Assembly (NCBI GenBank): GCA_029582155.1
Contig: CM055895.1
Coordinates: forward strand, 19,951,004 to 20,015,003
DNA: 64,000 nt
From: Panopea generosa
Taxonomy: Eukaryota > Mollusca > Bivalvia > Adapedonta > Hiatellidae
Direction of reading: 5' to 3'
A model generated the notes under the pieces. That model was not told where the DNA came from. It worked only from the letters and a program-made list of their open reading frames with translations, and did not search any database. The translations under genes were made by a program, and so were the position numbers. This document shows positions 35,001 to 58,650 of this stretch, piece after piece; position 1 is the first letter of the stretch; every line of letters starts with the position of its first letter.

Positions 35001-38000
35001 CCAAGGGGCACTGCACTTTATTATTTGGCAGTATTGTTTCTGGTCGAAGTACCGTAAACAAACATGCGATAATGTGTGATAAATATGACAGACCATTGTT
35101 TGTTAGCATGAATCAATTAGAAGCGATGTTGTTTATAACAATATGAACTTGTCATTATTTCAGTCTGAATTATCAAGGTGTAATGATGCACTTATAGCAT
35201 GGTCACTGTTTGGAAAAATGTAACGGGCTCATAAACACTTGGCGATTAAGTGGAGATTTTCGATCAATTCATCAATTATTATACCGCGAGTTTTAATGAA
35301 TCCTGTTGAAAATATCAATTTTAAATTGGGGAACCATAGAAAAAACATGTAATAATGAGTTTCACGTTATATCAGACCGTGTTATAACGGGACCCGAGTG
35401 TACTTGTAATTATATCAAAGGTCGAGAGTGTCAAGTTGTTTTATTTTCTATAAAATAGGTTGGGGTGTTTGTTGTGGGGTAGCATTTATTCCGCGGTATA
35501 TGGTATGTGGTAAATGACATTAATTAAACTACATTCAGAAATACCGGGCCTGGTTAGTTAAATCGATGGCTCGTTTGACTAACAATCAAGTGGTTGTGAG
35601 TTTGAATTTCCATCTGACTACAGTCTCCGTGATGGATGCTGCACGACATTGCATCTCGTTGTCCTTCATCTCTCATCACAGTTTGAAGTGAGAAAGTTAC
35701 CAGTAACTTGCGAAGGTGGGTGTGCTCAAGTACTGGTTAACTTTCCAGGATCCCAGGAAAGAGTGATAAGGTTAACTGATCATCTTGTCTCACACCATTA
35801 TTACATTTTCCATAGGACTCAATTATAACATTTATGTCTCACACCACTATTATATTTCCCATAGGGCTCCACTGTAACATTTATGTCTCACACCACTATT
35901 ATATTTCCCATAGGACTCCATTATAACATTTATGTCTCACACCACTATTATATTTCCCATAGGACTCCATTATAACATTTATGTCTCATACCACTATTAT
36001 ATTTCACATAGGGCTCCATTGTAACATTTATGTCTCACACCACTATTACATTTCCCATAGGGTTCCACTGTAACATTTACGTCCCACACCACTATTACAT
36101 TTCCCATAGGGCTCCACTGTAACATTTATGTCTCACACCACTATTACATTTCCCATAGGGCTGCACTGTTACATTTATTTCTCACACCACTATTACATTT
36201 CCCATAGGGCTCCACTGTAACATTTACGTCTCACACCACTATTGCATTTTCCATAGGGCTCCACTGTAACATTTACGTCCCACACCACTATTACATTTCC
36301 CATAGGGCTCCACTGAAACATTTATGTCTCACACCACTATTGCATTTTCCATAGGGCTCCACTGTAACATTTATGTCTCACACCACTATTGCATTTTCCA
36401 TAGGGCTCCACTGTAACATTTACGTCCCACACCACTATTACATTTCCCATAGAGCACCACTGTAACATTTATGTCCAAAACACAGTGAAAAAAAAAAATC
36501 TACATCATGTGTCTGTGCTCAAAATCTTCACTAGTTCAAGATAAGCAATTATAAAGGGAAAAAAGCATACCTTGACCAGTTGTTTTGTTTTAAATTCAAT
36601 GGTTTTGTGAGACCTATCAATTTCCAGAGTAATAATATGTCAACTATTGCCCATGATGCGGTTCAAACCAACAATTTTGAAATGACACAAAATTATCCAG
36701 TAAGCATGTATCAGCATCAAATTTTTTTAGCGGTGATTTCTAAAATACTGACCACTTAACTCATGCTCGGAAAAAATAAATCACTTCAGTACAAAGCCCT
36801 AAAGTTTTATTTCTACCTCCTTCATCTGTAGGTCCGGAGTACTCAAGGGAGATAATATTGGTGTGAGTCTTTCTGTTAGCCCTCAATGACATTAAAATGT
36901 AGCTAAAAAAATTCAGCAAAATTTATCTATATTTCCTTCTGTTTGTCCATCTGCTTGTTTGTCTGTAAACACAATAACATGTACAGAGAAGTGTCATTAT
37001 TTACACTTGGTTAAGTATCACGGTTAAATAATTTCCATAGAAATCATAAGAATAGAATATATTGATTTTGGGTTAAACATATTTATTCATTCAATTTTAC
37101 CTTCATACAAATCAACTAGGTAAAAATATGTTTTAGAATAGAAGATAGAATATTATAATGGTGTTCTCCATTGATTTTGGCACGCATAATTAACTGAGCA
37201 CATTACACGCCTGTATTTTAATTAAAGCCTTTGCTTGTTGGACTTTGTAAGTCATGATTTATACTAAAATATATCATTATTAATGTAATTTTATATCAGC
37301 CTAGACTATGTTACTATGGAAACACATTTTTAATAACACTTCTGAATGCTATACTAAATTATTATTTCAATTTAATTAAATTCATTTTTTAAAAATAAAT
37401 GCACTGAAGATTCTAACAATGGAAATAATGTATTTGTTTTTGCAGGTGCTTGATGAAGCAAAGGCATATATTCTTGACGAGTCGGCCAGAAAACCATTGG
37501 TGATTCATGCACAGTCAGGAGCTGGTAAAACATCTATCATGGCCATGATCATGAAGAGTGTTCCAAAATGGCTGAAATCAAAATCCCACATCAAGCTGAT
37601 AAGATTCCTGGGGACAACTCCAAATTCCAACCGCATCTATGATGTACTATTCAGTGTTCTAGGGCAGTTGTCTGACGCATGTGACATGATCATGTCGCCC
37701 ATCAGTTACAGAAATGTTAAAAATCTGATAGATTATGTGCCAAGATACCTTCGACAAGTAGCTCAAACCTGCAAGGAACCGATCATAATCCTTCTGGACT
37801 CGGTTGATCAGCTGTATCCAGATCACAATGCATATGCTATGGAATGGTTGCCACTCAGACTTCCTCAGAATGTAAAACTCATTTTATCAACACTTCCACA
37901 AGAGCATGGTATTTTGGAAAATCTGCAAAAACGTTTGCCTCCCAAAGAATGTTATGTGGAAGTACCACTCCTTCCTGAGTCAACTGGAAAACTCATCGCT

Positions 38001-41000
38001 GAGTCGTATCTGAAGGGTAACAACCGGACACTGACCGAGGCACAGATGCGTTTAGTTCTCTCCGTGTTTAAAAACTCCCCAAGTCCTCTGTTCTTAAAGC
38101 TGTTGTTAGATGAAGCCAGAAAGTGGCACTCCTATACACAGTTGTCAGAATTGCTACTTGCATCAACTGTGAAAGAAGCAATAAACAGACTATTCGAAAA
38201 TCTTGAAAAAAAATTTGGGTATGCTCTGATATGCCATGCATTGGGTTACATCACAATTGGCTTAACAGGACTGACTGAGTTTGAGATTGAAGATGTGCTC
38301 TCATGTGACGATGTCGTTTTGAATGAGGTCTACAAATACCATGATCCACCTGTTCCTGGTATTGTGCGTATTCCACCAGTCTTGTGGGCCAGAATCAGAT
38401 ATGATATCAGAGAATATCTTGTGGAAAGAATATCCCAGGGCAAAAACACCCTGAACTGGTACCATAGACAGTTCATAGAAGTGGCAAGACAAAAGTATGC
38501 TACAAGTGAATTGAAGGTCATTGGACTTCATAAGAACTTGGTTGACATATATCTGCAGGATTGCGGAGTGAAACGAACAATAACGCTTACAAATCGCAAT
38601 AACCTGACGATCACTGATGCCGACAGACAAGTGACTCCGCAACCTTTTACAACACAAAATAGACGAAAACTTGCTTGTTTGCCATACCATGTGATCAGGA
38701 CTGGTAGAGCCATCAGTAATGATGACAAGAAAGAAAAAATCTTTTGCAATTTTAAGTTTCTTTGCACTAAGATAGCTGCATTTTCTCCTTCAGCAGTGAT
38801 TTCTGACTTAGAAGACTTCATTCAAACAAAGGAAGATGAAGAAATCCTTCTGCTGTTGAACTTCATGTCCACCAGCAAAGCAGACTTGACATCACCAGTT
38901 AGACTTGCAGTCTGTCTTCTAGCCTATATAAATCCAGAGGAAAATCACATGACTCTTATATCACTTCTTGAGCAGGCCAAGCAGTATTTGCTGTCGCAGA
39001 AGAAGACAAATCTAGTGCCAACATTCCCATGCTTAACCTCAAGAACCAATGTTTCAAGTGCTCTCCAGACCTTATTGCATGGGTTTTCTGCTATTAGGGC
39101 CACCTCAAATAACCTGGTGTTACTAAAATATCACAAACAATGTGATGAATCGGATGACAAGTCTGATTATGCAATCTTCAACTTGAGCAACATGGACCTT
39201 CAACAGTTTGACTTGCTTCACCCGTTGAAATATGTAGCATTGCCAAATTATGCAGTGACAGGAACACATGTGTATTATGTGACAAATTCAGACCTTGTTG
39301 CCTATGATTACAATAATGGCAAATCAGTGTCTTGTAGTTTCTCAGACATGCTTCCAAAGTGGGATGCAAATACCAACTCTGTCAACTACTTTACATCAAA
39401 TGCAGAGAACACGCTTGGCATACTAACTTTTAAAAACTCTTCTAGATCGGTTCTCATAGATCTACAACACATGAAATTAGTGCAAGCCTTCAACATAGCA
39501 AGACAATTTGCCACAGTTGAAAAGACGGTGTTTGTGAATTCAGAAGTTGAAGCGAAGGTGGTATCTGTTGGAAAAATAACCAATTCTTCACCTGATGATG
39601 TACCTCAAGGTCCGGACAATATGTGGTTTGTTTGTCTATTTGAAACAGGGAAGGAAAACCCTGTAAAATTTTTGGAAGTAGAGAAGGAGATAGACATTGA
39701 TGCAATGGCACTTGCAAACCAGGATAATTGGTTAGTTATAGCAACAAAGGGAACTAAAGAACAAGATTCTGATAAAATTGATAATCAGGATACACATGTG
39801 GATGATACAAAAGAGACTGGATCTGGGGATGGAACAAACGTACAGTTGCTCTCATTTAGACTTGATGATGTAACAAAAGAATCAGAAATCAGTCTGTCTG
39901 GTCCAGTGGTAAAACTACAAGGAAGCCCACTGTCAAAGTTTGCTGCAGCATTGACTGCTGATGGAACATTTCGTCTTGTGGATTTGTCTAAAGGGAGTAT
40001 TAAAATGGAAGTAAAACTGAACTATCCTATCAGAAACGTTTGTGTTGTATGGGAAGAGAGCATTTGCTTGTTGTGTTCTGCAGCAGGGAATGTAACATTG
40101 TATGACATAGAAGAAGACAAAAATCTTGGTGCTTTCACAGCACATAAGAACCATATTCTGGACATTACTCTATCAGATCAGCAATGTGTCACTCTGGATT
40201 CAAGTCATGAGTTGAAAGCATGGTCTGTAACAGCACTGATTAATGAAACCAAAATGGAGGAGATGGTAAAAAAATCTAAACAAGCTGTTTCAAAACTTTT
40301 AGACGAAACAAATGTGTCGGCTCTTGGTGTATCTATAGATGGAACTGAAACCATAACATGCACAGAAGATGGTTACATCAAAATGTGGGATACAGAATCA
40401 CAAAAACTGCTACGACAGTACAACATTGAAATCATAGTCAATGTTATACTAGTACTCAGTGATGGTTCTGTCGCTTTGCTTGATAAGAAATTGGGAAAAC
40501 TTCTGATATTTGATATCGAGTCGGGAAAATACGTCATAAAGATGTCAGATTTTCCGGAAAATGTTTTGGCAATTACACGCAACTCTGAGAAAAATACAGT
40601 GTATGCTGTGAGTTCTCCGAGGCAAGGCCATCAACAGATTGACATTGTTAACATTGAGCTGAAGAAAATCTCGAAAACAATATCCATACAAAAAGGTCTA
40701 ACTTACCACAGTCTGGATGTAATGCTATCCAAAATGGAAAGATACCTCGTCATTAGATCTTTAATACCAGATGAAGAATTCGAAGGAATTCAGCAAGTAA
40801 CGAAGAAAGCAGGCTCTTTTGGAGAACAACCGCATCATCACAAATTCACTGCTATAGATATTTTACATGGAAATGGAGGCCTGATGCCATGTTTTCGTCA
40901 GCTGACGAAGATCCCTACCCTGGGAACTGTGATGGAACCATACAGAGGAAATACCATGCTGGTTGCAACAAGAAGGTGTGTAGTTTTTCTTTTTACAAAA

Positions 41001-44000: not shown

Positions 44001-47000
44001 TTAATTGCAATTATTGTAGGTGTGTTCTCAGAATGTTTTATCAGGTGGGGTCCGCCAATATCAGAGTTGTAGTCTTGGGTAGTAAAGTTAATAACTTTTG
44101 CTGAAATGTTGTCATTTTACAATATTTTGAGAATATCATGAGTGATATAGACGCTCAGCCTCCCCACCCCTTCTCCCTCCGCCAGCACTTATACACATGT
44201 ATCTGGTCAAAATGCAATTATTTGTTTTCTGGAAGGTATGTTTTATTCTGGGAGATTCCAACAGGAGCCTGTTCTCAGAAAACCAATCACAGTTCAAGTG
44301 ACAATAACAAGAACTGCATGCTGTACAGACCAGCGTGGGTTGGGAAGAGGGTGAAAGGACAAACATCTGTCTTGAGATTATCTCCAAGTAATGAATTTGT
44401 CGCCATAGGGTCTGAAGATGGCTATGTGATAATATATGATATGGAGAAAGGCACACCTAGGAATCTGACCAAGCCAGCAACATATCATACTTCTGAGGTA
44501 AAGGATAAATCGTTACTCAATCTGCTGGATACTTTAATTCATTTTTTTAAATCACATTTCTTTGGTGCAGTTTTCATACATTGTGGGACATTTCAGTAAG
44601 TATTACTAGAAATAAGGCTGTAGAATAGACCCAGCTCCCCCTGTTTGGGTCCGTTGCATAGCAGTGAGATTTTGGCACATTGACTGGTCATTTGCTTCAT
44701 GATTCGGTAAGCGTTTAAGTACTATGAATTATGGGATAGGGATGGAATTCCCTGCTTTTTCATTAGGGTTTAACAGACCTGATTTTGGAGACATGGGGTA
44801 TTGTGATAGACTCGATACTGCAGGTAGATAGGTTATACCCTGGCAATGGCCTTGTTGAGGAGTGCTGGTAATCCCACAATGCATTGTGATTTTGGAGACA
44901 TGGGGTATTGTGATAGACTAGATACTGCAGGCAGATAGGTTATATCCTGGCAATGGCCTTGTTGAGGAGTGTTGGTAGTCCCACAATGCATTATGATTTT
45001 GGAGACATGGGGTATTGTGATAGACTGGATACTGCAGGCAGATAGGTTATACCCTGGCAATGGCCTTGTTGAGGAGTGTTGGTAGTCCCACAATGCATTA
45101 TGATTTTGGAGACATGGGGTATTGTGATAGACTGGATACTGCAGGCAGATAGGTTATACCCTGGCAATGGCCTTGTTGAGGAGTGCTGGTAGTCCCACAA
45201 TGCATTGTGATATTGTAGACATGGGGTATTGTGATAGACTAGATACTGCAGGCAGATAGGTTATACCCTGGTAATGGCCTTGTTGAGGAGTGCTGGTAGT
45301 CCCACAATGCATTGTGATTTTGGAGACATGGGGTATTGTGATAGACTAGATACTGCAGGCAGATAGGTTATACCCTGGTAATGGCCTTGTTGAGGAGTGC
45401 TGGTAGTCCCACAATGCATTGTGATTTTGGAGACATGGGGTATTGTGATAGACTCGATACTGCAGGCAGATAGGTTATACCCTGGCAATGGCCTTGTTGA
45501 GGAGTGTTGGTAGTCCCACAATGCATTGTGATTTTGGAGACATGGGGTATTGTGATAGACTCGATACTGCAGGCAGATAGATAATACCCTGGCAATTGCC
45601 TTGTTGAGGAGTGCTGGTAGTCCCACAATGCATTGTGATATTGTAGACATGGGGTATTGTGATAGACTAGATACTGCAGGCAGATAGGTTATACCCTGGC
45701 AATGGCCTTGTTGAGGAGTGTTGGTAGTCCCACAATGCATTGTGATATTGTAGACATGGGGTATTGTGATAGACTAGATACTGCAGGCAGATAGGTTATA
45801 CCCTGGTAATGGCCTTGTTGAGGAGTGCTGGTAGTCCCACAATGCATTGTGATTTTGTAGACATGGGGTATTGTGATAGACTAGATACTGCAGGCAGATA
45901 GGTTATACCCTGGTAATGGCCTTGTTGAGGAGTGCTGGTAGTCCCACAATGCATTGTGATTTTGTAGACATGGGGTATTGTGATAGACTAGATACTGCAG
46001 GCAGATAGATTATACCCTGGCAATTGCCTTGTTGAGGAGTGCTGGTAGTCCCACAATGCATTGTGATATTGTAGACATGGGGTATTGTGATAGACTAGAT
46101 ACTGCAGGCAGATAGGTTATACCCTGGCAATTGCCTTGTTGAGGAGTGCTGGTAGTCCCACAATGCATTGTGATTTTGTAGACATGGGGTATTGTGATAG
46201 ACTCGATACTGCAGGCAGATAGGTTATACCCTGGTAATGGCCTTGTTGAGGAGTGCTGGTAGTCCCACAATGCATTGTGATTTTGGAGACATGGGGTATT
46301 GTGATAGACTAGATACTGCAGGCAGATAGGTTATACCCTGGCAATGGCCTTGTTGAGGAGTGCTGGTAGTCCCACAATGCATTGTGATTTTGTAGACATG
46401 GGGTATTGTGATAGACTCGATACTGCAGGCAGATAGGTTATACCCTGGTAATGGCCTTGTTGAGGAGTGCTGGTAGTCCCACAATGCATTGTGATTTTGG
46501 AGACATGGGGTATTGTGATAGACTAGATACTGCAGGCAGATAGGTTATACCCTGGCAATGGCCTTGTTGAGGAGTGCTGGTAGTCCCACAATGCATTGTG
46601 ATTTTGGAGACATGGGTTATTGTGATAGACTAGATACTGCAGGCAGATAGGTTATACCCTGGTAATGGCCTTGTTGAGGAGTGCTGGTAGTCCCACAATG
46701 CATTGTGATTTTGGAGACATGGGGTATTGTGATAGACTAGATACTGCAGGCAGATAGGTTTTACCCTGGCAATTGCCTTGTTGAGGAGTGCTGGTAGTCC
46801 CACAATGCATTGTGATTTTGGAGACATGGGGTATTGTGATAGACTAGATACTGCAGGCAGATAGGTTATACCCTGGCAATGGCCTTGTTGAGGAGTGCTG
46901 GTAGTCCCACAATGCATTGTGATTTTGGAGACATGGGTTATTGTGATAGACTAGATACTGCAGGCAGATAGGTTATACCCTGGTAATGGCCTTGTTGAGG

Positions 47001-50000
47001 AGTGCTGGTAGTCCCACAATGCATTGTGATTTTGGAGACATGGGGTATTGTGATAGACTCGATACTGCAGGCAGATAGATTATACCCTGGCAATTGCCTT
47101 GTTGAGGAGTGTTGGTAGTCCCACAATGCATTGTGATATTGTAGACATGGGGTATTGTGATAGACTAGATACTGCAGGCAGATAGGTTATACCCTGGCAA
47201 TGGCCTTGTTGAGGAGTGCTGGTAATCCCACAATGCATTGTGATTTTGGAGACATGGGGTATTGTGATAGACTAGATACTGCAGGCAGATAGGTTATACC
47301 CTGGTAATGGCCTTGTTGAGGAGTGCTGGTAGTCCCACAATGCATTGTGATTTTGGAGACATGGGGTATTGCGATAGACTAGATACTGCAGGCAGATAGG
47401 TTATACCCTGGCAATGGCCTTGTTGAGGAGTGCTGGTAATCCCACAATGCATTGTGATTTTGGAGACATGGGGTATTGCGATAGACTGGATACTGCAGGC
47501 AGATAGATTATACCCTGGCAATTGCCTTGTTGAGGAGTGCTGGTAGTCCCACAATGCATTATGATTTTGGAGACATGGGGTATTGTGATAGACTCGATAC
47601 TGCAGGCAGATAGGTTATACCCTGGCAATGGCCTTGTTGAGGAGTGTTGGTAGTCCCACAATGCATTGTGATTTTGGAGACATGGGGTATTGTGATAGAC
47701 TAGATACTGCAGGCAGATAGGTTATACCCTGGCAATTGCCTTGTTGAGGAGTGCTGGTAGTCCCACAATGCATTGTGATTTTGGAGACATGGGGTATTGT
47801 GATAGACAAGATACTGCAGGCAGATAGGTTATACCCTGGCAATTGCCTTGTTGAGGAGTGCTGGTAGTCCCACAATGCATTATGATTTTGGAGACATGGG
47901 GTATTGTGATAGACTAGATACTGCAGGCAGATAGGTTATACCCTGGCAATGGCCTTGTTGAGGAGTGCTGGTAGTCCCACAATGCATTATGATTTTGGAG
48001 ACATGGGGTATTGTGATAGACTCGATACTGCAGGCAGATAGGTTATACCCTGGCAATTGCCTTGTTGAGGAGTGCTGGTAGTCCCACAATGCATTATGAT
48101 TTTGGAGACATGGGGTATTGTGATAGACTCGATACTGCAGGCAGATAGGTTATACCCTGGCAATGGCCTTGTTGAGGAGTGCTGGTAGTCCCACAATGCA
48201 TTGTGATTTTGGAGACATGGGGTATTGTGATAGACTGGATACTGCAGGCAGATAGGTTATACCCTGGCAATGGCCTTGTTGAGGAGTGCTGGTAGTCCCA
48301 CAATGCATTGTGATTTTGGAGACATGGGGTATTGTGATAGACTGGATACTGCAGGCAGATAGGTTATACCCTGGCAATTGCCTTGTTGAGGAGTGCTGGT
48401 AGTCCCACAATGCATTGTGATTTTGGAGACATGGGGTATTGCGATAGACTAGATACTGCAGGCAGATAGGTTATACCCTGGCAATGGCCTTGTTGAGGAG
48501 TGCTGGTAGTCCCACAATGCATTGTGATTTTGGAGACATGGGGTATTGTGATAGACTAGATACTACAGGCAGATAGGTTATACCCTGGCAATGGCCTTGT
48601 TGAGGAGTGTTGGTAGTCCCACAATGCATTGTGATTTTGTAGACATGGGGTATTGTGATAGACTCGATACTGCAGGCAGATAGGTTATACCCTGGTAATG
48701 GCCTTGTTGAGGAGTGCTGGTAGTCCCACAATGCATTGTGATTTTGGAGACATGGGGTATTGTGATAGACAAGATACTGCAGGCAGATAGGTTATACCCT
48801 GGCAATGGCCTTGTTGAGGAGTGTTGGTAGTCCCACAATGCATTGTGATTTTGGAGACATGGGGTATTGTGATAGACTAGATACTGCAGGCAGATAGGTT
48901 ATACCCTGGTAATGGCCTTGTTGAGGAGTGCTGGTAGTCCCACAATGCATTGTGATTTTGGAGACATGGGGTATTGTGATAGACTAGATACTGCAGGCAG
49001 ATAGGTTATACCCTGGCAATGGCCTTGTTGAGGAGTGCTGGTAGTCCCACAATGCATTGTGATTTTGGAGACATGGGGTATTGTGATAGACTTGATACTG
49101 CAGGCAGATAGGTTATACCCTGGCAATGGCCTTGTTGAGGAGTGCTGGTAGTCCCACAATGCATTATGATTTTGGAGACATGGGGTATTGTGATAGACTA
49201 GATACTGCAGGCAGATAGGTTATACCCTGGCAATGGCCTTGTTGAGGAGTGCTGGTAGTCCCACAATGCATTGTGATTTTGGAGACATGGGGTATTGTGA
49301 TAGACTAGATACTGCAGGCAGATAGGTTATACCCTGGCAATGGCCTTGTTGAGGAGTGCTGGTAGTCCCACAATGCATTATGATTTTGGAGACATGGGGT
49401 ATTGTGATAGACTCGATACTGCAGGCAGATAGGTTATACCCTGGCAATGGCCTTGTTGAGGAGTGTTGGTAGTCCCACAATGCATTGTGATTTTGGAGAC
49501 ATGGGGTATTGTGATAGACTAGATACTGCAGGCAGATAGGTTATACCCTGGCAATGGCCTTGTTGAGGAGTGCTGGTAGTCCCACAATGCATTGTGATTT
49601 TGGAGACATGGGGTATTGTGATAGACTAGATACTGCAGGCAGATAGGTTATACCCTGGTAATGGCCTTGTTGAGGAGTGCTGGTAGTCCCACAATGCATT
49701 ATGATTTTGGAGACATGGGGTATTGTGATAGACTCGATACTGCAGGCAGATAGGTTATACCCTGGCAATGGCCTTGTTGAGGAGTGTTGGTAGTCCCACA
49801 ATGCATTGTGATTTTGGAGACATGGGGTATTGTGATAGACTAGATACTGCAGGCAGATAGGTTATACCCTGGCAATGGCCTTGTTGAGGAGTGCTGGTAG
49901 TCCCACAATGCATTATGATTTTGGAGACATGGGGTATTGTGATAGACTCGATACTGCAGGCAGATAGGTTATACCCTGGCAATTGCCTTGTTGAGGAGTG

Positions 50001-53000
50001 CTGGCAGTCCCACAATGCATTGTGATTTTGGAGACATGGGGTATTGTGATAGACTAGATACTGCAGGCAGATAGGTTATACCCTGGCAATGGCCTTGTTG
50101 AGGAGTGTTGGTAGTCCCACAATGCATTGTGATATTGGAGACATGGGGTATTGTGATAGACTAGATACTGCAGGCAGATAGGTTATACCCTGGTAATGGC
50201 CTTGTTGAGGAGTGCTGGTAATCCCACAATGCATTGTGATATTGTAGACATGGGGTATTGTGATAGACTAGATACTGCAGGCAGATAGGTTATACCCTGG
50301 CAATTGCCTTGTTGAGGAGTGCTGGTAGTCCCACAATGCATTGTAATTTTGGAGACATGGGGTATTGTGATAGACTAGATACTGCAGGCAGATAGGTTAT
50401 ACCCTGGCAATGGCCTTGTTGAGGAGTGCTGGTAATCCCACAATGCATTGTGATATTGTAGACATGGGTTATTGTGATAGACAAGATACTGCAGGCAGAT
50501 AGGTTATACCCTGGCAATGGCCTTGTTGAGGAGTGCTGGTAGTCCCACAATGCATTGTGATTTTGGAGACATGGGGTATTGTGATAGACTCGATACTGCA
50601 GGCAGATAGGTTATACCCTGGCAATGGCCTTGTTGAGGAGTGCTGGTAGTCCAACAATGCATTGTCTTGCACTGGATGGGAGGAGGGCAACCATTTTTAT
50701 TTATAAGACAATTTCTTTTTCAATTGAACAACTTGCTTGACTGGCTACATCAAGAACATGAAGACAGACTGTGGTAAACAAGATTTTACATCTATTTAAA
50801 GAAGTAGTTAAGTTGCCACCTCTCATTTACAGATGGCTAGTGTTCTGGGACATCCCGACGGGTAAGTGTGACCAGAAGCTGAGTAAAAAAAAGAAAGTTG
50901 GTATGTTCTACAGGCCTGGCTGGCTGGGCCAAAACTGCAAGGGAACCAGTCTAGCTGTGGAGAAATCTCCAAATGAAGAGTATTTAGCAGTAGGATCAGA
51001 GGATGGTTATTTATTTATATATGATACAGAATATGGGCTACCCAGGAACAATGCCATTCCATCAACGAGGCATAACACAGAGGTGAACTTTTTGTGTGTT
51101 TTAATGCTAATATATTAATGTGTATTTTGAATTTATATGCAATAGGAGGGACACCCAGCAATGTTGAAAACGTGTTTACTGAATGTTTATGTATTATACA
51201 TGTACGTGTACTTACCAGCTTTAAAAACGCAAGTATGGGTATTGTATAAAATTTACATAGACAAAACTTTCGTACCATGTGTTTCATTGTAGTCTAACAA
51301 TTGCATCACTTTAAAACAGTTCAGCATCAAAACATTTACATAAAGTTTGTCTTCTTGTTTTAATCTATCACTTTAAAACACAAATTTAACAAATTTATTA
51401 TGGTCGACATATTATTAACCCTTTACTTCATATAGATGCCTTTGGACATCTCTAATATAGACGCCTTTGGACACCTAATATAGAAGGCTTTTGAATTATT
51501 GGGTGAATTATGTTTATATTAACTGACAGAGTGGAAAACAGTGCAGGAAGCATTCAGATTGCTCTGCAGTCAGAACTCTTCCTGCACTGTTTTCAAAGGC
51601 CTTCTGTGATTGGTGCAGGAAAATGCGTATCTTTGGAGTAAAGGGTTAACTTTACATAATTTTAGATAATATCAACCTTGCTCATAATATTATATAAACC
51701 GATAAAAACTATAGCAGATCTAGGATACATTTTATATGCAATATTCAAAAACACGCATTTTATAGGCGTCCAGTATGTATACAAAGTGATATTTCCATGG
51801 AAATTTTTGTTATCTAAACAATAAAAAAAGTGAAATTTATTGTTATAAATGAGCACAAACATTTGGAGGATCAAGTCGTTCAACAATTTATCAGAGTTAT
51901 GCCCCTTTTTGACATAGAAACAAATTAAACGTCGACAAACAAACTACGATATTTTTAATTCATTTAAACAGCACTGAGTGAAAATTTATCAAAATGACTG
52001 TTTGTATCTTTGATTGAAAGGCTGAGTATGAGGGGCATTCAATAAATTTTGTCACTAAAGGCCTTCTGTAGAAACAATGTTGCACAAAAACATGAAAAAC
52101 TTGTGCATTTTTTAAGGGATGTTTATTCAATACACCTGCAAATTCTCAATTTAATCTGATTATAATTGATCAAGATTAAAATTGTTGAATTTTACATACT
52201 CATGTACAGTGGCTTTATTTCAATGTCTTAATGAAACCTGAAGAAAAATTAGAAATAAGTCTTACATTAAAGCCCAAGTTTCTTTGCAGTTATCGCCAAA
52301 AGAAATTTATTCTGAATTGTGTCGTAAACATGATAGTTTTACCATAACATTAAGAACAGTTTTTCATTGGGTTAAGAAATTTAAGGGAGTGGGTGGGGAG
52401 TGGGGGGGGGGGGGGGGGGGGGGGGAGCATAGCCTGCAAGAAGATAACCGCCCAGGTAGGCCTGTTGTTGCAGCAATAAAAGAAATCATTGGTTCTGGAT
52501 GGTATACTGTTTCCCAGATAGCTTATTGTCTACGCATTTCAGAAGATCATAATATTCTGACTAACTGTTTGAAATTAAAGAAGCTTTGTGCTAGATGACA
52601 CCTGACAAAAGGTTACACCTGACCAAAAGGCCAAGCATTAAGATTGTGGTAAAAAACTTTTGATAAAAAAGAAATTGTAATCCTAGGAAAATTTCTGACT
52701 TGGTCACCGGGGATGAATCTTAGATTTATTATTTTGAGCCCCAATGGCACATCAATAACAAACAATGGCTTGGTAAAAATCAGACTAGGCCGGTCATAGC
52801 AAAAAGGACAAGAAGTGCCAAGAAAGTTTTATATGCCATTTTCATCAATTCTAGTGATCCTGTTGTACAAATTCCTTGCAAGGAAAGTGGAACAATTACA
52901 GGCAAGTTTTACAAAGATAAAGTACTTAAATGTCAAAATTTGTTATCAAAATAAACGCCCAAGTTAAGATTTGGAAGGCATACAGCATATTCATGACAAT

Positions 53001-55224
53001 GCTTCTGCCCACAAAAGTAAGAGTGTACAATTTTCTTAGTTATTCAGGTTGAACACCCCCCTTGTTCCCCTGACTTAAGCCCCTTTTTCCTATTTCCCAT
53101 GTTAAAAAAAATGCTTACACTATGCTACTAGAAGTGCCCTTGGGTCTACAATTTTTCAGTGTCTGAACAGTATACCAAGGGGAGACTACTTTGCGGCATT
53201 TAGGTCGTGGACAGCAAGACTTCAAAAGTGTGTATCTGTGCTGGGGGAACACTTTGAAAGGTTGACCTGAAAAAATTCCCGTTCCTGTGAAAATCTTAAA
53301 TATCTCAAGACCCATGATAGAATATATTTAATGCCACTCATAGATAATCAGCTAACATGTAATGAAATGTCATTTTCATTATATATCTTGTGCAAGTGCC
53401 AATGTTGGTCACATTTTACAGGGGTTATAGTCCCTTTTTGATAAAATGTCTGGTAAAGTTTACATACATGGGAAAACGACAAATTACTAGTTTAAATCTT
53501 AAATAAGTTTTGAGTGATGTAATTGATTAAATGTATCAGTTACATAATCTTAATTAAATTTTGATTGATGTACCAGTAACATTATCTTAATTAAGATTTG
53601 ATTGATGTACCAGTTACATAATCATTATTAAGTTTTGATTAATGTACCAGTTACATAATCTTAATCAAATTTTGATTAATGTACCAGTTACATAATCTTA
53701 ATTAAATTTTGATTGATGTACCAGTTACATAATCTTAATTAAGATTTGATTGATGTACCAGTTACATATTCTTAATTAAATTTTGATTGATGTACCAGTT
53801 ACATAATCTTAATTAAGATTTGATTGATGTACCAGTTACATAATCATTATTAAGTTTTGATTAATGTACCAGTTACATAATCTTAATCAAATTTTGATTA
53901 ATGTACCAGTTACATAATCTTAATAAAGATTTGATTGATGTACCAGTTACATAATCTTAATTAAATTTTGATTGATGTACAAGTTATATAATCTTAATTA
54001 AGATTTGATTGATGTACCAGTTACATAATCTTGATTAAGTTTTGATTAATGTACCAGTTACATAATCATTATTAAGTTTTGATTGATGTATTACTTACAC
54101 AATCGTTATTAAGTTTTGATTAATGTACCAGTTACATTATCATTATTAAGTTTTGATTGATGTACCAGTTACGTAATCTTAAATAAGTTTTGATTGATGT
54201 ACCAGTTACATAATCATTATTAAGTTTTGATTGATGTACCAGTTACGTAATCTTAAATAAGTTTTGATTGATGTACCAGTTACATAATCATTATTAAGTT
54301 TTGATTGATGTTTTACTTACACAATCATTATTAAGTTTTGAATGATGTATTACTTACAAAATCATTATTAAGTTTTGATTAATGTACCAGTTACATAATC
54401 ATTATTAAGTTTTGATTGACGTATTACTTACACAATCATTATTAAGTTTTGAATGATGTATTACTTACAAAATCATTATTAAGTTTTGATTAATGTACCA
54501 GTTACATAATCATTATTAAGTTTTGATTGATGTACCAGTTACACAATCTTTGCATACAAAGGAACCACTTGTTAAGTCAATGCTTGACAAAATATATTGT
54601 GGTTTCAATCTTTCCATACTGATTCCTTTAAAAGTGATTGTACGTCAATGGACAATATGGTCTGGTCCATATTTAAATGAATTGTGAGACCAACAATTCA
54701 GATAATCAAAACTGTAAATATTCTCTCCATATTTTTTAAAAGATATATTATATACCTACAGGTATTTAATAAGTATAGATATTTACAAAAAGATAACTTC
54801 AAGTACAGTACTTGTAAAAAAAATTATGAAATGTAGTAGTCTATATATTAACTAAGACTTTGTCATTTTCCTACATGTTCTATTTAATTAAGACTTTATC
54901 ATTTTGCTACCTTTTTTTAATTAAGACTTTGTCATTTTGCTATTTGTTCTTTTTAACTAAGACTTTGTCATTTTGTTCTAGGTTCAAAAAGTGGCCATAT
55001 CCCCAGATAGTAAGTGGGTGGTGTCCTCTTGTCTCAGTAGTATCCTGAAGTTGTGGGAGGCAAGAACAGGCAAGGAACAGTTCTCGATTCGCGTCGATGC
55101 GGAGGTACAGTCCATCATGTTTACGCCAGACTCTCAACACTTGGTTTTGTACACAGGTATACAGACTACCAGGGTGATCATGTTTTCTGTTCACGATGGC
55201 CAGCAGTCAGATAGCCCAGACTGA
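13971..55224 (+). CDS. NACHT and WD-repeat domain protein (NWD1/NWD2-like STAND NTPase), whole gene span
   Basis: Coding exons: 13971-14001, 14940-15019, 17943-18019, 18642-18685, 20220-20342, 20974-21176, 22860-23030, 25231-25417, 28276-28427, 34204-34533, 37446-40975, then either 44236-44497 (12A) or 50833-51082 (12B), then 54982-55224. All introns are GT-AG and all phases agree. The product is 1,810 residues with 12A or 1,806 with 12B, close to vertebrate NWD2 (about 1,740). Order: basic tail 1-80, DUF4062-like block from about 109, linker to about 466, NACHT from about 480 (Walker A Lys494, Walker B Asp584), winged helix near 730, WD region from about 1,040 to the end. STAND proteins of this class are cytosolic signalling ATPases that oligomerise when the WD sensor is engaged. 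The ligand and pathway here are unknown. It could equally be named TEP1/NWD-like; one-to-one orthology to NWD1 or NWD2 is not established. Confidence 0.85.
14028..14218 (-). mobile_element. tRNA-derived SINE, family 2
   Basis: On the minus strand it begins near GGGGGCGGTGGTGTAATGG with a tRNA-like head (GATAGAGTGTTGGCCGC), then GGTTCCATCCCCAGGTCGAC, and ends in an AT-rich tail containing TTAGTATAAACT. It matches the + strand element at 33829-34019. It lies in intron 1, immediately after exon 1. Confidence 0.75.
14713..14836 (+). mobile_element. Fragment of a LINE apurinic endonuclease domain
   Basis: Translation gives LSILAWNVEGLKN, then a stop at 14800-14802, and after a +1 shift KIVFCSETWSKV. 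The pattern WNVEGL...(I/V)xxxxETW is typical of the N-terminus of APE-type non-LTR retrotransposon endonucleases (catalytic Asn and Glu-Thr motifs). Only about 40 codons are preserved. It ends 100 bp before exon 2 and is dead. Confidence 0.6.
14940..15019 (+). CDS. NWD-like gene, exon 2
   Basis: Acceptor TTTATACAG|C and donor GAG|GTAACA; phase 1 in, phase 0 out. It encodes about residues 11-37, including KKTMHPRTSSFNKPGPELLE, part of a Ser/Lys-rich tail that looks disordered. No domain is recognised. Confidence 0.75.
16235..17085. repeat. 26-bp minisatellite in intron 2
   Basis: About 32 diverged copies of a 25-26 bp unit close to CAGTTTTCAGACAAAAGTAA plus ATATCA. Variants carry AAATTAAAAAGC in place of AAAGTAAATATC. 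Many units contain TTTTCAGAC, which resembles a polypyrimidine/acceptor AG, so the array is a string of weak decoy 3' splice sites. Confidence 0.9.
17160..17380. repeat. Dispersed repeat related to 44605-44785
   Basis: It shares GGGTCCAT/GTTAAATAGCA, TTGATTGGTCATTTGCTTCA, CTATGAATTGTGGGA and TCATTGGGG with the sequence at 44605-44785, in the same orientation and order. It is an interspersed repeat, with no coding potential recognised. Confidence 0.6.
17440..17770. repeat. Dispersed repeat related to 55560-55850
   Basis: Collinear with 55560-55850: AGTGGTAAACTTGAAA, AAAAATAGAC, CACGTGACTCA, CAAAATATGTTGCAATTTTA and TCTAACC occur in the same order and orientation. It is an ancient interspersed repeat with no open frame. 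It contains a CACGTG E-box and TACGTCA, whose role, if any, is unknown. Confidence 0.65.
17943..18019 (+). CDS. NWD-like gene, exon 3
   Basis: Acceptor TTCCACATAG|G and donor CCTAA|GTAAGT; phase 0 in, phase 2 out. It encodes about residues 38-62 with NKKPASPKRTAFKARPK, a basic Pro/Ser/Lys segment. It is a small exon of the disordered N-terminal tail. Confidence 0.75.
18115..18320 (+). mobile_element. SINE family 3 fragment (degraded)
   Basis: It contains TTTGAGCTCAGCTTGATCTA and AATGTGAGAAAGGTTGCCAG followed by TTACTTGCAGAATGG. The same series appears at 34620-34790 and, in diverged form, at 35545-35790 and 61140-61330. The head is truncated, so only the body is recognisable. Confidence 0.5.
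18642..18685 (+). CDS. NWD-like gene, exon 4
   Basis: A 44-bp microexon between ATCACCTACAG|A and AAAG|GTTAGT; phase 2 in, phase 1 out. It encodes about residues 63-77 (PASKKVDITSTSKK), the last part of the basic tail. Its small size makes it easy for gene finders to miss. Confidence 0.7.
19569..20150. repeat. 19-bp minisatellite in intron 4
   Basis: About 30 copies of GAGCATGAACACTTGAGTT and close variants (GAATATGAACACTTGAGTT, GAACATGAACACTTTAGTT). The long minus-strand open frames rich in Cys, Ser and Gln are artefacts of the repeat. It ends about 70 bp before exon 5. Confidence 0.95.
20220..20342 (+). CDS. NWD-like gene, exon 5 (start of DUF4062-like block)
   Basis: Acceptor GTTTATCAG|A and donor TCCG|GTAAGT; phase 1 in and out. 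It encodes about residues 78-118, ending in MVKIFLSSTFS. The FLSSTFSDMRAER motif, completed by exon 6, is the hallmark of the N-terminal block of NWD1/NWD2/TEP1-type STAND proteins (DUF4062-like). Confidence 0.88.
20974..21176 (+). CDS. NWD-like gene, exon 6
   Basis: Acceptor ATTTTACCAG|A and donor TTTGTG|GTAAGA; phase 1 in, phase 0 out. It encodes about residues 119-186, including DMRAERNILAREVYPRLRAY, FQVVDMRWGV (147-155) and KASRGPNFV. The pattern matches the NWD1/NWD2 N-terminal block. The donor region is repeated twice downstream in the intron (see 21161-21340). Reading past the donor hits a stop at 21222. Confidence 0.9.
21161..21340 (+). repeat. Triplicated splice-donor segment of exon 6
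   Basis: Three tandem, diverged copies of a ~60-bp unit centre on TGTGGTAAGAAA (near 21173, 21232 and 21293), each followed by a TTTCT-rich stretch and a CAGTCCAGCAGA-like sequence. Copy 1 spans the end of exon 6 and its donor. Copies 2 and 3 are intronic and retain intact GTAAGA donors. Confidence 0.75.
21447..21580. mobile_element. Foldback (palindromic) element
   Basis: The two halves are inverted: GGATAGAAAATTCC at 21473 faces GGAATTTTCTATC near 21540-21552, the flanking GGGATAACTG faces CAGTTGTCCC, and the outer arms AAGAATCTTACATGG face CCATGAATGATTCTT. A hairpin of more than 50 bp per arm is possible. It resembles a foldback MITE. It shares GATAGAAAA arms with the palindrome at 55396-55526. 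Confidence 0.6.
21848..22065. repeat. 36-bp minisatellite in intron 6
   Basis: Six copies of a ~36-bp unit with CAACAGTATACCTACGCTAA and ACTATATTATTTCCTA. Variants alternate CTACGC and CTAGGC. Confidence 0.9.
22130..22440 (-). mobile_element. SINE family 3
   Basis: On the minus strand it has a tRNA-like head (GTGCAGTTAGCTCAGTCAG, an A-box) and GGGTCACGAATTCAAATCC (B-box-like). The body includes GAAAGTTATCAGCTACTG and GTTAACCTTCCAGGATCCCA. The last motifs match 35545-35790 (+) and 58078-58255 (-). Confidence 0.7.
22860..23030 (+). CDS. NWD-like gene, exon 7
   Basis: Acceptor ATTACTCAG|G and donor CTCCAG|GTAAGT; phase 0 in and out. It encodes about residues 187-243: VLSGNRYGFRPIPIEIDVAE, EFEMLRAEA, LLDEWYKLDTNSLPPMYILQ. 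The LSGNRYGFRPIP and EWY..D.NS.P..Y.L motifs are conserved in NWD proteins. A second AG ten bases in would shift the frame and is rejected. Confidence 0.9.
23031..25230 (+). other. Intron 7
   Basis: The intron holds a short GGGGCCTTT tandem motif (23370-23450) and a dispersed modular repeat (24300-24900). It contains no coding sequence I can support. Confidence 0.6.
24300..24900. repeat. Dispersed modular repeat
   Basis: It is led by GATCGGTCAGTCCGTCTGTAGG and followed by modules of about 130-190 bp carrying AATTTTTCAATGAGT, GCCCTTTGA, GCTATTTCTC(A/G)GCAAC, TGGAA(G/T)TCAATGAAACTTC and CAC/GCAAGGGTGACT. The phrase order resembles 56575-57260, so both probably belong to one superfamily. Confidence 0.7.
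25231..25417 (+). CDS. NWD-like gene, exon 8
   Basis: Acceptor CTCATATCAG|C and donor ATATCAG|GTATGT; phase 0 in, phase 1 out. It encodes about residues 244-305, including FFADFSPACDEPRKKDTADWW and KLSPEKRNQYYIS. It continues the N-terminal linker between the DUF4062-like block and NACHT. NWD2 has a comparable Trp-containing linker ending in a (R/N)xY(Y/L) motif. Confidence 0.85.
25475..26130. repeat. Dispersed modular repeat
   Basis: It is led by TTGTCTGTCGTCCGTCATCC and followed by repeated phrases CAAATTTGTTCAA(A/G), GACTCTGGGGT, AAAATCTTCTTC and GGCCCTGCCCC. The vocabulary is close to that of 41185-42660. It sits in intron 8. Confidence 0.65.
26335..28255. repeat. 36-bp minisatellite in intron 8
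   Basis: About 55 diverged copies of a 32-36 bp unit made of GTTACATTGTTTGTTAGAGA and ATGTCACATCATTCCT. Shorter units lack TTTG. Because the main period is a multiple of three, + strand frames read as repeated HIIPVTLFVREC-like peptides. These are artefacts. It ends about 20 bp before the exon 9 acceptor. Confidence 0.95.
28276..28427 (+). CDS. NWD-like gene, exon 9
   Basis: Acceptor CCTGTCTTTAG|T and donor GACAAG|GTACTA; phase 1 in, phase 0 out. It encodes about residues 306-356: VTECEIQDGILKAKDVNDH, LVYKRELRDLKG and RFIDIKKSDK. The linker motif xVxxRELRDL is shared by NWD and TEP1-type proteins. It is wedged between two large minisatellites. Confidence 0.88.
28545..32012. repeat. 72-bp minisatellite in intron 9 with higher-order structure
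   Basis: About 48 copies of a 72-bp unit containing GGACTACAAGTGTATCAGGG, GTGGAGGACAGTAACTATAC and TTAGGTTATATTAGACATAT. Most neighbours differ by one to three bases. Diagnostic variants (TTGGACATATG, GTAGAACTAC, GGGATGGAGG, ACCATGCTTAGG) recur together 432 bp (six units) later. There is no sequence relation to the 72-bp array at the window start. Confidence 0.97.
32722..33352. repeat. 38-bp minisatellite in intron 9
   Basis: About 16 nearly identical copies of CATACATAATTGTTTGTTTA plus TATCATATATGTAAAACC. The near identity indicates recent expansion. One unit near 33285 is truncated. Confidence 0.95.
33393..33618. mobile_element. piggyBac-like MITE with TTAA target duplication (copy 2)
   Basis: 226 bp between TTAA at 33389-33392 and 33619-33622, with terminal inverted repeats CCCTTTACTTCATA and TATGGAGTAAAGGG. 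It keeps the internal hairpin GATTGCTCGTTACAAGCAATC and the GTGCAGGAAG/CTTCCTGCAC arms. Confidence 0.88.
33772..34168 (-). mobile_element. SINE family 1, split by a family 2 SINE
   Basis: The left part (33772-33825) carries the family 1 tail (AATTGTGAAACTTGTTCTTAC, then GACAAATCATGC). The right part (34020-34168) carries body and head (ACCAGTACTGAGCATATG, AGGACACCACATACAGCC, GGATCAAACTCAGAACCC). The two parts become collinear with 5474-5694 when 33829-34019 is removed. It ends about 35 bp before exon 10. Confidence 0.7.
33829..34019 (+). mobile_element. tRNA-derived SINE, family 2 (nested)
   Basis: The tRNA-like head GGCGGTAGTCTAATGGATAG has an A-box-like motif, and GGGGTTGATCCTCTGGTCGA is B-box-like. 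The body has CTGGTTCTACCCAGGAAG and ends in TTAGTATAAACTAAACTAAA. It is the same family as 14028-14218 and is inserted inside a minus-strand family 1 SINE. Confidence 0.78.
34204..34533 (+). CDS. NWD-like gene, exon 10
   Basis: Acceptor TTTACTACTAG|G and donor GAAAAA|GTAAAT; phase 0 in and out. It encodes about residues 357-466: GIEIDMEVHNLREALTTKKI, YSVPWRPGGID, DHSIYIKEFCIDFISDCLGL and KFCQSKCESFCGQEK. This is the last linker before NACHT. The pattern of a YIKEF..DF helix and a C..KC.SF motif also precedes the P-loop in NWD2. An ATTTTGTGG-containing segment near the donor is repeated about 60 bp into the intron. Confidence 0.88.
34620..34790 (+). mobile_element. SINE family 3 (5' truncated)
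   Basis: It shows GAGGTCGCAGGTTTGAGCCC (B-box-like), TAGTGTGAGAAAGGGACCAG and TAACTTGCAGAATGG, collinear with 18115-18320 and 35545-35790. Confidence 0.55.
34931..35400. mobile_element. TA-flanked MITE with pogo/Tigger-like ends
   Basis: 470 bp, flanked by TA at 34929-34930 and 35401-35402. The left end CACTCTGGTCTCGTTATA pairs with the complement of the right end, CACTCGGGTCCCGTTATA. The inverted repeat continues to about 27 bp (22 of 27 matching by eye, counting the TA). TA duplication with CA(C/G)T...CTCGTTATA ends resembles pogo/Tigger elements. There is no transposase. Confidence 0.75.
35545..35790 (+). mobile_element. SINE family 3
   Basis: It has a tRNA-like head (CCTGGTTAGTTAAATCGATGG, then GTGGTTGTGAGTTTGAATTTCC), body TGAGAAAGTTACCAGTAACTTGC and 3' part GTTAACTTTCCAGGATCCCA. 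The complement of the last motif is found at 22215-22235 and in similar form at 58120-58140. Confidence 0.68.
35790..36475. repeat. 49-bp minisatellite in intron 10
   Basis: About 14 copies of a 49-bp unit with TCTCACACCACTATTATATT, TCCCATAGGGCTCCACTGTA and ACATTTATG. Variants include GTCCCACACC and GCATTTTCCAT. Confidence 0.93.
36476..37445 (+). other. Distal intron 10
   Basis: AT-rich sequence with a GTTTGTCCATCTGCTTGTTTG remnant at about 36940-36965 of the dispersed modular repeats. It ends in the acceptor TGTTTTTGCAG of exon 11. No coding sequence is seen. Confidence 0.6.
37446..40975 (+). CDS. NWD-like gene, exon 11 (NACHT, winged helix, most WD repeats)
   Basis: A single 3,530-bp exon, with acceptor TTTTTGCAG|G and donor AGAAG|GTGTGT; phase 0 in, phase 2 out. 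It covers about residues 467-1642. Walker A is QSGAGKTS (Lys494). RFLGTT near 519 is the arginine-containing strand typical of NWD NACHT domains. Walker B is PIIILLDSVDQL (578-589). LPQNVKLILSTLP follows. LEKKFGYALICHALGYITI (about 720-738) and LTEFEIEDVLSCDD form the winged-helix region, and LACLPYHVIRTGRA (about 870) starts the helical linker. From about 1,040 on, WD-like blades appear, e.g. VYYVTNSDLVAYDYNNGK, VTLYDIEEDKNLGAFTAHKN, ITCTEDGYIKMWDTESQ and LLIFDIESGKYV. An acidic loop near 1,240-1,265 (DNQDTHVDDTKETGSGDG) interrupts the propeller. The frame runs past the donor to a stop at 41042. I favour splicing because both forms of exon 12 join in frame. Confidence 0.93.
40976..44235 (+). 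other. Intron 11 (before exon 12A)
   Basis: It contains a large dispersed modular repeat (41185-42660), AT-rich sequence, and a CpG-richer patch with E-box/CRE-like words (43670-43890: GACGTCATTTGACTGAC, TTGCGCGG, CACACGTGCACAATGATGACG). The last 98 bp before exon 12A are open in the exon's frame, with an ATG at 44138. Confidence 0.6.
41185..42660. repeat. Dispersed modular repeat, ~160-bp modules x about 9
   Basis: Led by GGTGTCCGTCGTCTGTCGTCC, then about nine ~160-bp modules with AATCTTCTTGTCAGAAAC, CACTGGGCCAATTTTGAT, TTCACAGAAATGTTCCTTGG, GTGACCCTCTACCAAG, TTTGTTCAAGCCATCTTGAT and CATGGCCGCCAGGGGGCGGG. Alternating module types read CACTGGGCC or TACTGGCTCG, suggesting a dimeric unit. Non-coding. 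Confidence 0.8.
44236..44497 (+). CDS. NWD-like gene, exon 12A (alternative WD exon)
   Basis: Acceptor TTTTCTGGAAG|G and donor TCTGAG|GTAAAG; phase 2 in, phase 0 out, 262 bp. It encodes RYVLFWEIPTGACSQK, LYRPAWVGKRVKGQTSVLRL, SEDGYVIIYDMEKGTPRN and YHTSE. It replaces 12B in the same position of the propeller. By eye about 39 of 83 aligned residues match 12B, including FW.IPTG, YRP.W.G, GSEDGY..IYD and PRN. It is four codons longer than 12B, in the loop after QK. Intact splice sites and the conserved blade pattern argue for function. Confidence 0.82.
44605..44785. repeat. Dispersed repeat abutting the 107-bp array
   Basis: Collinear with 17160-17380 (GGGTCCGTTGCATAGCA, TTGACTGGTCATTTGCTTCA, CTATGAATTATGGGA, TTCATTAGGG). 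Its last part, GACCTGATTTTGGAGACATG, merges into the first unit of the 107-bp array. Confidence 0.6.
44777..50665. repeat. 107-bp minisatellite between exons 12A and 12B
   Basis: About 55 head-to-tail copies of a 107-bp unit containing GGAGACATGGGGTATTGTGA, TACTGCAGGCAGATAGGTTA, CCTTGTTGAGGAGTGCTGGT and GTCCCACAATGCATTGTGAT. CACAATGCATTGTG is a perfect 14-bp palindrome in most units (TTATG variants break it). The ladder of 86-codon minus-strand frames is produced by the repeat and is not coding. The array occupies about 5.9 kb of the 6.3-kb intron. Confidence 0.98.
50833..51082 (+). CDS. NWD-like gene, exon 12B (alternative WD exon)
   Basis: Acceptor TCATTTACAG|A and donor CAGAG|GTGAAC; phase 2 in, phase 0 out, 250 bp. 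It encodes RWLVFWDIPTGKCDQKLSKK, MFYRPGWLGQNCKG, SPNEEYLAVGSEDGYLFIYD and RHNTE. It has a stronger pyrimidine tract than 12A and keeps a polybasic loop (SKKKK) where 12A has an Asn/Ser-rich loop (NHSSSDNNKN). It joins exon 11 and exon 13 in frame. If spliced after 12A it would be read out of frame and meet a TAA within about a dozen codons. Confidence 0.85.
51419..51645. mobile_element. piggyBac-like MITE with TTAA target duplication (copy 3)
   Basis: 227 bp between TTAA at 51415-51418 and 51646-51649, with ends CCCTTTACTTCATATAG and TTTGGAGTAAAGGG. The internal arms GTGCAGGAAG and CTTCCTGCAC are conserved. The small central hairpin seen in copy 2 is degraded here (GATTGCTCTGCAGTCAG). Confidence 0.88.
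52029..53340 (+). mobile_element. Full-length, inactive mariner element
   Basis: 1,312 bp flanked by TA at 52027-52028 and 53341-53342. Terminal inverted repeats: left TGAGGGGCATTCAATAAATT, right (complement) TGAGTGGCATTAAATATATT, about 20 of 25 matching. The size and TA duplication are those of Tc1/mariner elements, and the interior encodes a decayed mariner transposase. It lies in intron 12 between exon 12B and exon 13. Confidence 0.88.
52231..53270 (+). pseudogene. mariner transposase pseudogene
   Basis: It starts at ATG 52231 (MKPEEKLEI). After a frameshift near 52258 it runs through SYIKAQVSLQLSPKEIYSEL and TVFHWVKKF (helix-turn-helix), a 24-base G run at 52402-52425, DNRPGRP (the GRPR-like hinge) and LKKLCAR. 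The first catalytic Asp is in VTGDES (52712, followed by a stop). The second is in HDNASAH (Asp at 52995). The third is in CSPDLSP (Asp at 53072). The last two Asps are 77 nt apart, where the DD34D spacing would need 105, so about 28 nt are missing. It ends YFAAFRSWTARLQKC...GEHFERLT at 53270. Multiple stops make it non-functional. Confidence 0.85.
53500..54545. repeat. 37-bp minisatellite in intron 12
   Basis: About 28 copies of a ~37-bp unit with TAATCTTAATTAAATTTTGA and TTGATGTACCAGTTACA. Variants include TCATTATTAAGTTTTG and GTATTACTTACAC. It lies downstream of the mariner. Confidence 0.93.
54845..54980 (+). repeat. Short tandem repeat carrying the exon 13 branch point and acceptor
   Basis: Four copies of a ~36-bp unit: TTAA(C/T)TAAGACTTTGTCATTTT followed by a pyrimidine-rich stretch. 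The last copy ends TTTTGTTCTAG and is the functional acceptor of exon 13. Two of the copies keep TTAACTAAG, which resembles a branch-point sequence, while the middle two have TTAATTAAG. Confidence 0.75.
54982..55224 (+). CDS. NWD-like gene, exon 13 (last exon)
   Basis: Acceptor TTTGTTCTAG|G, phase 0, stop TGA at 55222-55224. It encodes 80 residues: VQKVAISPDSKWVVSSCLS, SILKLWEARTGKEQFSIRVD, VQSIMFTPDSQHLVLYTG and the hydrophilic end DGQQSDSPD. It forms the last WD blade(s). The SPDS..VVSS and LKLWEARTGK motifs are classic WD signatures. It is in frame with both 12A and 12B. Skipping both would read this exon in another frame and stop within about 25 codons. Confidence 0.92.
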   Translation, partial: VQKVAISPDSKWVVSSCLSSILKLWEARTGKEQFSIRVDAEVQSIMFTPDSQHLVLYTGIQTTRVIMFSVHDGQQSDSPD

Positions 55225-58510: not shown

Positions 58511-58559
58511 TATTAAAAAATGGAAATTTATTGGGAATTTGATCTAACATACGGGTAAC

Positions 58560-58650
58560 ATACGTTACGAGCAATCTGAACTCTTCCTGAACTGTTTTCA
58601 AAGGCCTTCTGTGATTGGTGTGGGAAAACGCTTATCTATGGAGTAAAGGG
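58560..58650. mobile_element. piggyBac-like MITE, right half only (copy 4)
   Basis: It matches the right half of the TTAA MITE: GTTACGAGCAATCTGAACTC, TTTTCAAAGGCCTTCTGTGA, TCTATGGAGTAAAGGG and then TTAA (58651-58654). The left half is lost next to the 36-bp array. Confidence 0.8.

Follow-up and report, generated by a model that had tools for sequence, protein, structure and literature searches.

Two homologous exons of an NWD1-like gene in Panopea generosa as probable mutually exclusive versions of one WD segment

Can one gene offer two versions of the same segment of a WD propeller by choosing between neighbouring exons? The question is raised by an NWD1-like gene of the bivalve Panopea generosa, contained in a 64,000-nucleotide stretch of contig CM055895.1 (positions 19,951,004 to 20,015,003 of assembly GCA_029582155.1; from here on, the window). 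Two exons, 12A and 12B, lie there between a giant exon, 11, and the last coding exon, 13 (Table 1); this numbering follows an earlier reading of the same DNA, the original prediction, and our reconstruction starts with exon 11. The original prediction held that 12A and 12B are frame-enforced, mutually exclusive alternatives. We consider such use to be the best explanation of the sequence, with a probability of roughly three in four (0.76), and it is well supported by whole-exon homology, shared phases, near-equal length, frame incompatibility and signs of selection. The two exons would descend from a single internal exon that was duplicated in tandem long ago, and transcripts would carry one of them at a time. 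Judged by eye, each exon would contribute strand c to one WD blade, make up the next and contribute strand d to a third, and its exchange would amount to a swap of one propeller segment, most marked in a single loop.

The proteins encoded by 12A and 12B can be aligned over the full length between their splice borders; 41 of the 87 alignment columns are identical, and there is one gap, of 4 residues (BLASTP E 7e-31). This is in good agreement with the predicted two diverged versions of one WD segment, for which about 39 of 83 residues had been counted as identical. The predicted difference between an Asn/Ser-rich and a polybasic loop was also recovered, since the loop that differs most reads SSSDNNKN in 12A and SKKKKV in 12B. 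The local alignment score was 224, and shuffled versions of 12B reached at most 50 (500 shuffles). In comparisons with 98 windows taken from the WD part of exon 11, the highest scores were 46 for 12A and 43 for 12B, and neither exon exceeded 29 against exon 13; the best of 136 window pairs inside exon 11 scored 66. The pair is thus not merely two more WD repeats. When each exon was searched singly against the 1.47-Gb genome (39 contigs, the window lying on contig C2), the only significant match was the other exon (E 6e-21 and 2e-20), and the next-best matches had E values of 1.0 and 0.69.

The two exons comprise 87 and 83 codons, and the 12-nt difference is a multiple of three. As far as the accessible text of Pillmann 2011 goes, mutually exclusive exons are sought there with a similarity score of at least 15% and a length difference of at most 20 amino acids (aa). 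Here the global score ratio is 0.48, under a scoring like, not identical to, that of the paper, the lengths differ by 4 aa, and the splice pattern and frame agree, both exons being bordered by GT-AG sites with phase 2 in and phase 0 out. According to the same text, these features were found in 90 of 16,180 non-exclusive fly exons (0.56%).

The reading frame is where the two exons become incompatible. Exon 11 ends after ..LVATR AG at the donor AAG/GTGTGT (40975/40976; the slash in a motif marks the splice border). Exon 12A is bordered by the acceptor ..GGAAG/ and the donor /GTAAAG, 12B by ..TTACAG/ and /GTGAAC, and exon 13 begins after ..TTCTAG/. Read at these borders, both exons have the predicted phases, and their lengths of 262 and 250 nt both leave a remainder of 1 on division by three. 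The joins 11-12A-13 and 11-12B-13 are open, as had been claimed, and end at the same stop. Joining 11-12A-12B leads to a stop after 10 codons of 12B (about a dozen had been predicted), and 220 nt separate this stop from the last junction downstream. By the usual decay rule, a stop at this distance ahead of the last junction is expected to elicit nonsense-mediated decay, and transcripts with both exons would be destroyed by this route. Skipping both exons (11-13) brings a stop 22 codons on, close to the predicted limit of about 25. Because this stop lies within the last exon, the skipping product would escape decay and would lack the end of the propeller. The claim of frame-enforced exclusivity therefore holds at the regular borders. 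It does not hold as an absolute lock, since a cryptic donor at 44596 could restore the frame for joint inclusion; the lock is strong, not absolute.

We also found signs that both exons have been under selection. Over 83 aligned codons, positions 1, 2 and 3 are identical at 54, 61 and 28 codons, respectively, and only 4 of the 16 fourfold sites that encode the same residue are identical. The proportion of differences is 0.77 at synonymous sites (pS), i.e., saturated, and 0.33 at nonsynonymous sites (pN). Silent saturation combined with this pN makes both exons look selected, and from the sequence they look constrained over most of their history. In simulations of free drift of 12A, an identity of at least 47% survived 0.75 substitutions per site in 0 of 4,000 runs and the frame stayed open in 86; at 0.5 substitutions per site, the corresponding numbers were 56 and 139. 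Finally, the in-frame coding scores of 12A and 12B exceed those of all 1,600 non-coding windows, a background made of the introns of the window and the stretch past the stop, on which the model was also trained.

The pair appears to be confined to this gene in this genome, as far as the two paralogue C-termini that we read can tell. With the first 351 residues of exon 11 as the query, the genome gives 24 matching stretches, spread over about 15 places, the gene itself included. We read the C-termini of the best other match (C16:60.30 Mb) and of the fourth best (C17:38.2 Mb), with about 6 kb downstream. In both, the WD end lies within one giant exon, which closes with ..ACVLS or ..ACVIL. The two loci (C16:60294001-60305551 and C17:38200001-38211280) are NWD-like, and the gene of the window ends with ..QQSDSPD instead. 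The paralogue endings resemble CAAX prenylation boxes. Genome-wide, no other relative was found for exon 13 or for the 558-residue WD part of exon 11.

Several observations weigh against mutually exclusive use. WD domains are repeat regions, and in such regions neighbouring homologous exons can be constitutive repeats. The introns flanking 12A and 12B retain no similarity to each other, their two scores being reached by 70 and 297 shuffles, respectively, out of 300 each. By tblastn, 12A, 12B and 13 are absent from the two paralogue loci beyond chance matches (best E 0.036). We did not find a credible docking/selector pair, which, within a single species, is weak evidence either way. In the human atlas of Hatje 2017 (PMC5740500), as far as its available text goes, 1,399 of 6,541 similarly found candidates were verified by RNA and many highly similar neighbouring exons are not mutually exclusive; this human verification rate lowers our confidence.

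A rival that we hold to be unlikely is that only one exon is really used, its partner being a fading duplicate that is skipped or very rarely included. Splice-site scores, obtained with metazoan position weight matrices (PWMs), lend it some support. The acceptor of 12A scores 2.9, as compared to 5.1 for both 12B and 13 (values reached by 4, 1 and 1 of the 163 AGs of the exon 11-12A intron), and the donors of 12A (7.13) and 12B (6.14) are both below that of exon 11 (8.98). The weaker acceptor might mean that 12A is rarely used, which also counts against exclusive use. So does the simulated drift at 0.25 substitutions per site, where 47% identity was kept in 3,901 of 4,000 runs and an open frame in 341, so that a recent end of one exon's use is possible. 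However, both frames are open, both pairs of splice sites are intact and the lengths differ by whole codons. Moreover, the silent sites are saturated, and long free drift would have erased the identity and usually brought stops.

It is very improbable that the two exons are used together as successive WD blades by means of a shifted splice site. The cryptic donor TCA/GTAAGT would make this feasible, as the translation is open through the lengthened 12A, 33 further residues, 12B and 13. Its score of 5.89 is close to that of the 12B donor, which is itself reached by 6 of the 203 GTs in the exon 11-12A intron. The in-frame double inclusion that the cryptic donor could allow is a further point against exclusive use. 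But the regular borders are out of frame, the phase-0 acceptors at 50764-50899 score -6.39 or lower, and the similarity between 12A and 12B lies far above that of any window pair in exon 11. In addition, both exons have the same register (by eye, they start between strands b and c and end after d), and joining them would break the blade order. Even less credence is due to the idea that transcripts end in 12A, as an alternative 3' terminal exon polyadenylated separately. Its frame is open as far as a stop at 44597-44599, but AATAAA and ATTAAA are absent from the plus strand between 44401 and 51819, and 12A has a GT donor at the place homologous to that of 12B and joins exon 13 in frame. The 5.9-kb minisatellite between the exons could have misled the assembly, but an assembly error or a misplaced exon of a paralogue is extremely unlikely: the genome search showed no further copy of either exon, both fit the frame and phase of this gene, and their silent sites are saturated. 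On balance, the anatomy supports the predicted exclusive use of 12A and 12B well.

If the exons are mutually exclusive, how would the choice be made? In the parts of PMC3585155 available to us, the routes to exclusion comprise steric hindrance, U2/U12 incompatibility, regulators and surveillance, and those of PMC6071210 add competing RNA structures. Steric exclusion operates when donor and branch point are less than about 50 nt apart, and the 12A-12B intron measures 6,335 nt. All sites are GT-AG, and by eye no U12-like donor is present. Because these two routes do not apply, the choice is probably made by regulators acting on the weaker acceptor of 12A, with recursive splicing at the junction of 11 and 12A as a possible contributor. 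Among 8 duplex scans for competing structures, one stood out, pairing the region upstream of 12A with the 12B-13 intron (-113.9; equalled by 0 of 30 crude shuffles and 0 of 83 control windows). The intronic stretch involved spans 304 nt, ends near 52655 and includes a run of G at 52402-52425, and the signal is probably due to this run facing a C-rich tract upstream of 12A. The regions upstream and downstream of 12B gave no matching signal with the 12B-13 intron (28 and 25 of 30 shuffles were as good), and a scan for inverted repeats showed no docking/selector pattern among the 25 longest of 116 pairs.

The junction of exon 11 with 12A raises a further possibility. The end of exon 11 and the first bases of 12A together rebuild a 5' splice site, AAG/GTATGT, which scores 9.73, above the donors of both 12A and exon 11, and as high a score is reached by none of the 203 GTs of the exon 11-12A intron. 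The exon 11/12B junction rebuilds no 5' splice site. With this junction, 12A fits the definition of a putative recursive-splicing (RS) exon, by our matrix and not by the MaxEntScan threshold of the paper that defines it (Blazquez 2018; PMC6224609). In the accessible text of that paper, whether an RS-exon is included depends on how the rebuilt site competes with the donor of the exon itself, and the exon junction complex acts as a repressor. One could therefore imagine the pair as a two-step switch, in which exon 11 would first be spliced to 12A and the rebuilt site would then cut 12A out again and join exon 11 to 12B. If the exon junction complex or some other factor shielded the 11/12A junction, 12A would be retained.

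We regard this two-step switch as doubtful. Given the residues R-Y-V and the codon use of exon 11 (AGG in 3 of 29 AGR codons; TAT in 25 of 40 tyrosine codons), GTATGT would arise by chance in about 6.5% of cases, a value calculated post hoc. In the same text, putative RS-exons make up 3.6% of human exons at the paper's threshold, and 93.8% of them are constitutive. For Drosophila, the text gives a proportion of about half and a complex that appears to be of little weight. These rates set a low prior for recursive splicing of 12A, and taken with the chance value they make the motif a lead, not a result. As described there, RS-exons resemble 12A in opening with a partial 5' splice site, and in 12A the rebuilt site outscores the exon's own donor. 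They differ in that 12A would be exchanged for a homologue and not simply lost. Exons sensitive to the exon junction complex tend, in that text, to have a stronger 3' site, a trend that the weak 12A acceptor does not follow. If the switch were real, the WD surface of an NWD1-like sensor would be chosen after the first splice, and use of the rebuilt site would link recursive splicing to a mutually exclusive choice.

The domain content of the gene was assessed with Pfam. The NWD1-like winged helix in exon 11 passes its cut-off (HTH_NWD1, PF25469; 49.6 bits versus 27), as does ANAPC4_WD40 (PF12894; 24.6 versus 22.9). NACHT (PF05729) stays under its cut-off, with 21.7 bits versus 26.7 (E 1.9e-4), and the P-loop AQSGAGKTS can be read in the sequence. 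Further propeller families match exon 11 with E values down to 1e-12, all under their own cut-offs, and PF00400 matches exons 11, 12A, 12B and 13 with 16.7 to 25.0 bits, under its cut-off of 27. Among PDB sequences, exon 11 matched 7 distinct ones at E values of at most 0.001, all of them generic WD proteins, and the NCBIfam scan gave a single weak match, in exon 13, far under the cut-off. An AlphaFold model of 12A, with 12B as its sole alignment partner, had a mean pLDDT of 39.8. Because of this low value, we make no structural claim, the strand register being assigned by eye.

Table 1. Exons, splice-site candidates and the intronic repeat array of the NWD1-like gene, in positions of the window
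Feature	Position	Strand	Description
Exon 11 (giant)	37446..40975	+	NACHT-like ATPase, NWD1-like winged helix and most of the WD region; phase 2 exit; assigned from open frame, junction and Pfam
Exon 12A	44236..44497	+	262 nt; phase 2 in, phase 0 out; first bases GTATGT
Exon 12B	50833..51082	+	250 nt; phase 2 in, phase 0 out
Exon 13 (last coding exon)	54982..55224	+	VQKVAISPD..DSPD stop; two further WD blades (by eye)
Rebuilt donor AAG/GTATGT	44236..44241	+	End of exon 11 plus start of 12A; candidate recursive 5' splice site
Cryptic donor TCA/GTAAGT	44596..44601	+	Lengthens 12A by 98 nt and joins 12B in frame; PWM score 5.89
107-bp x 55 minisatellite	44780..50665	+	Occupies the greater part of the intron between 12A and 12B

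A 3-kb query taken from the 107-bp array found no match outside the array, in a search that skips very common words, and the RNA fold of the first unit was no better than that of shuffled sequences (177 of 200 shuffles were equally stable or more so). Minisatellites pack the window, others lying at 1-3964, 28547-32011, 32721-33355, 53523-54550 and 62361-63470. In the intron after 12B, an apparent broken remnant of a mariner/Tc1-like transposase (by eye) occupies 52242-53280, and the run of G mentioned above, 24 residues long, lies within it. A short dispersed repeat has at least three copies in or near the gene (33393-33569, 51507-51638 and 58548-58643), with inverted arms at 51415-51649.

Frame-locked tandem mutually exclusive exons are already known, and an NWD1-like gene would be a new setting for them. 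Such exons are reportedly the subject of Letunic 2002 and Jones 2001 on FGFR2 IIIb/IIIc, both cited in PMC3585155. In the human atlas, according to the text available, 377 clusters of mutually exclusive exons (60%) have lengths that are not divisible by three (PMC5740500). As far as these known cases are described there, the present pair is similar to them in consisting of homologous neighbours with the same phases and lengths not divisible by three, double inclusion of which is expected to lead to decay. Unlike them, it concerns a WD segment of an NWD1-like gene, is separated by a 6.3-kb, mostly minisatellite intron and is predicted from the sequence. Skipping of exon 5 in the leucine-rich repeat (LRR) domain of NLRP3 is likewise a case of splicing that alters the C-terminal repeats of a NACHT protein; in the portion of PMC6642158 at hand, however, NLRP3 loses a module and activity, whereas 12A and 12B would swap two homologous versions. 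The variable exons of Dscam, linked to immunity in insects, are also mutually exclusive and swap part of a recognition domain (PMC13428168 and PMC6071210, in their accessible parts), but they form large clusters, not a pair, and no credible pair of docking and selector sequences was found here. In the open-access literature we found no paper joining NWD1 with mutually exclusive exons, a search by which reports within NACHT or bivalve papers may be missed, and none joining mutually exclusive exons, molluscs, WD40 and innate immunity.

What would the swap mean? The original prediction that 12A and 12B would provide two recognition surfaces of one sensor builds on the general idea that the C-termini of STAND proteins sense. 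A paper on human NWD1, in the part available, is concerned with signalling by the androgen receptor and proposes a scaffold role. Should both exons be used, a single NWD1-like gene would yield two versions of its C-terminal propeller, and sensing or scaffolding could be split between tissues or states.

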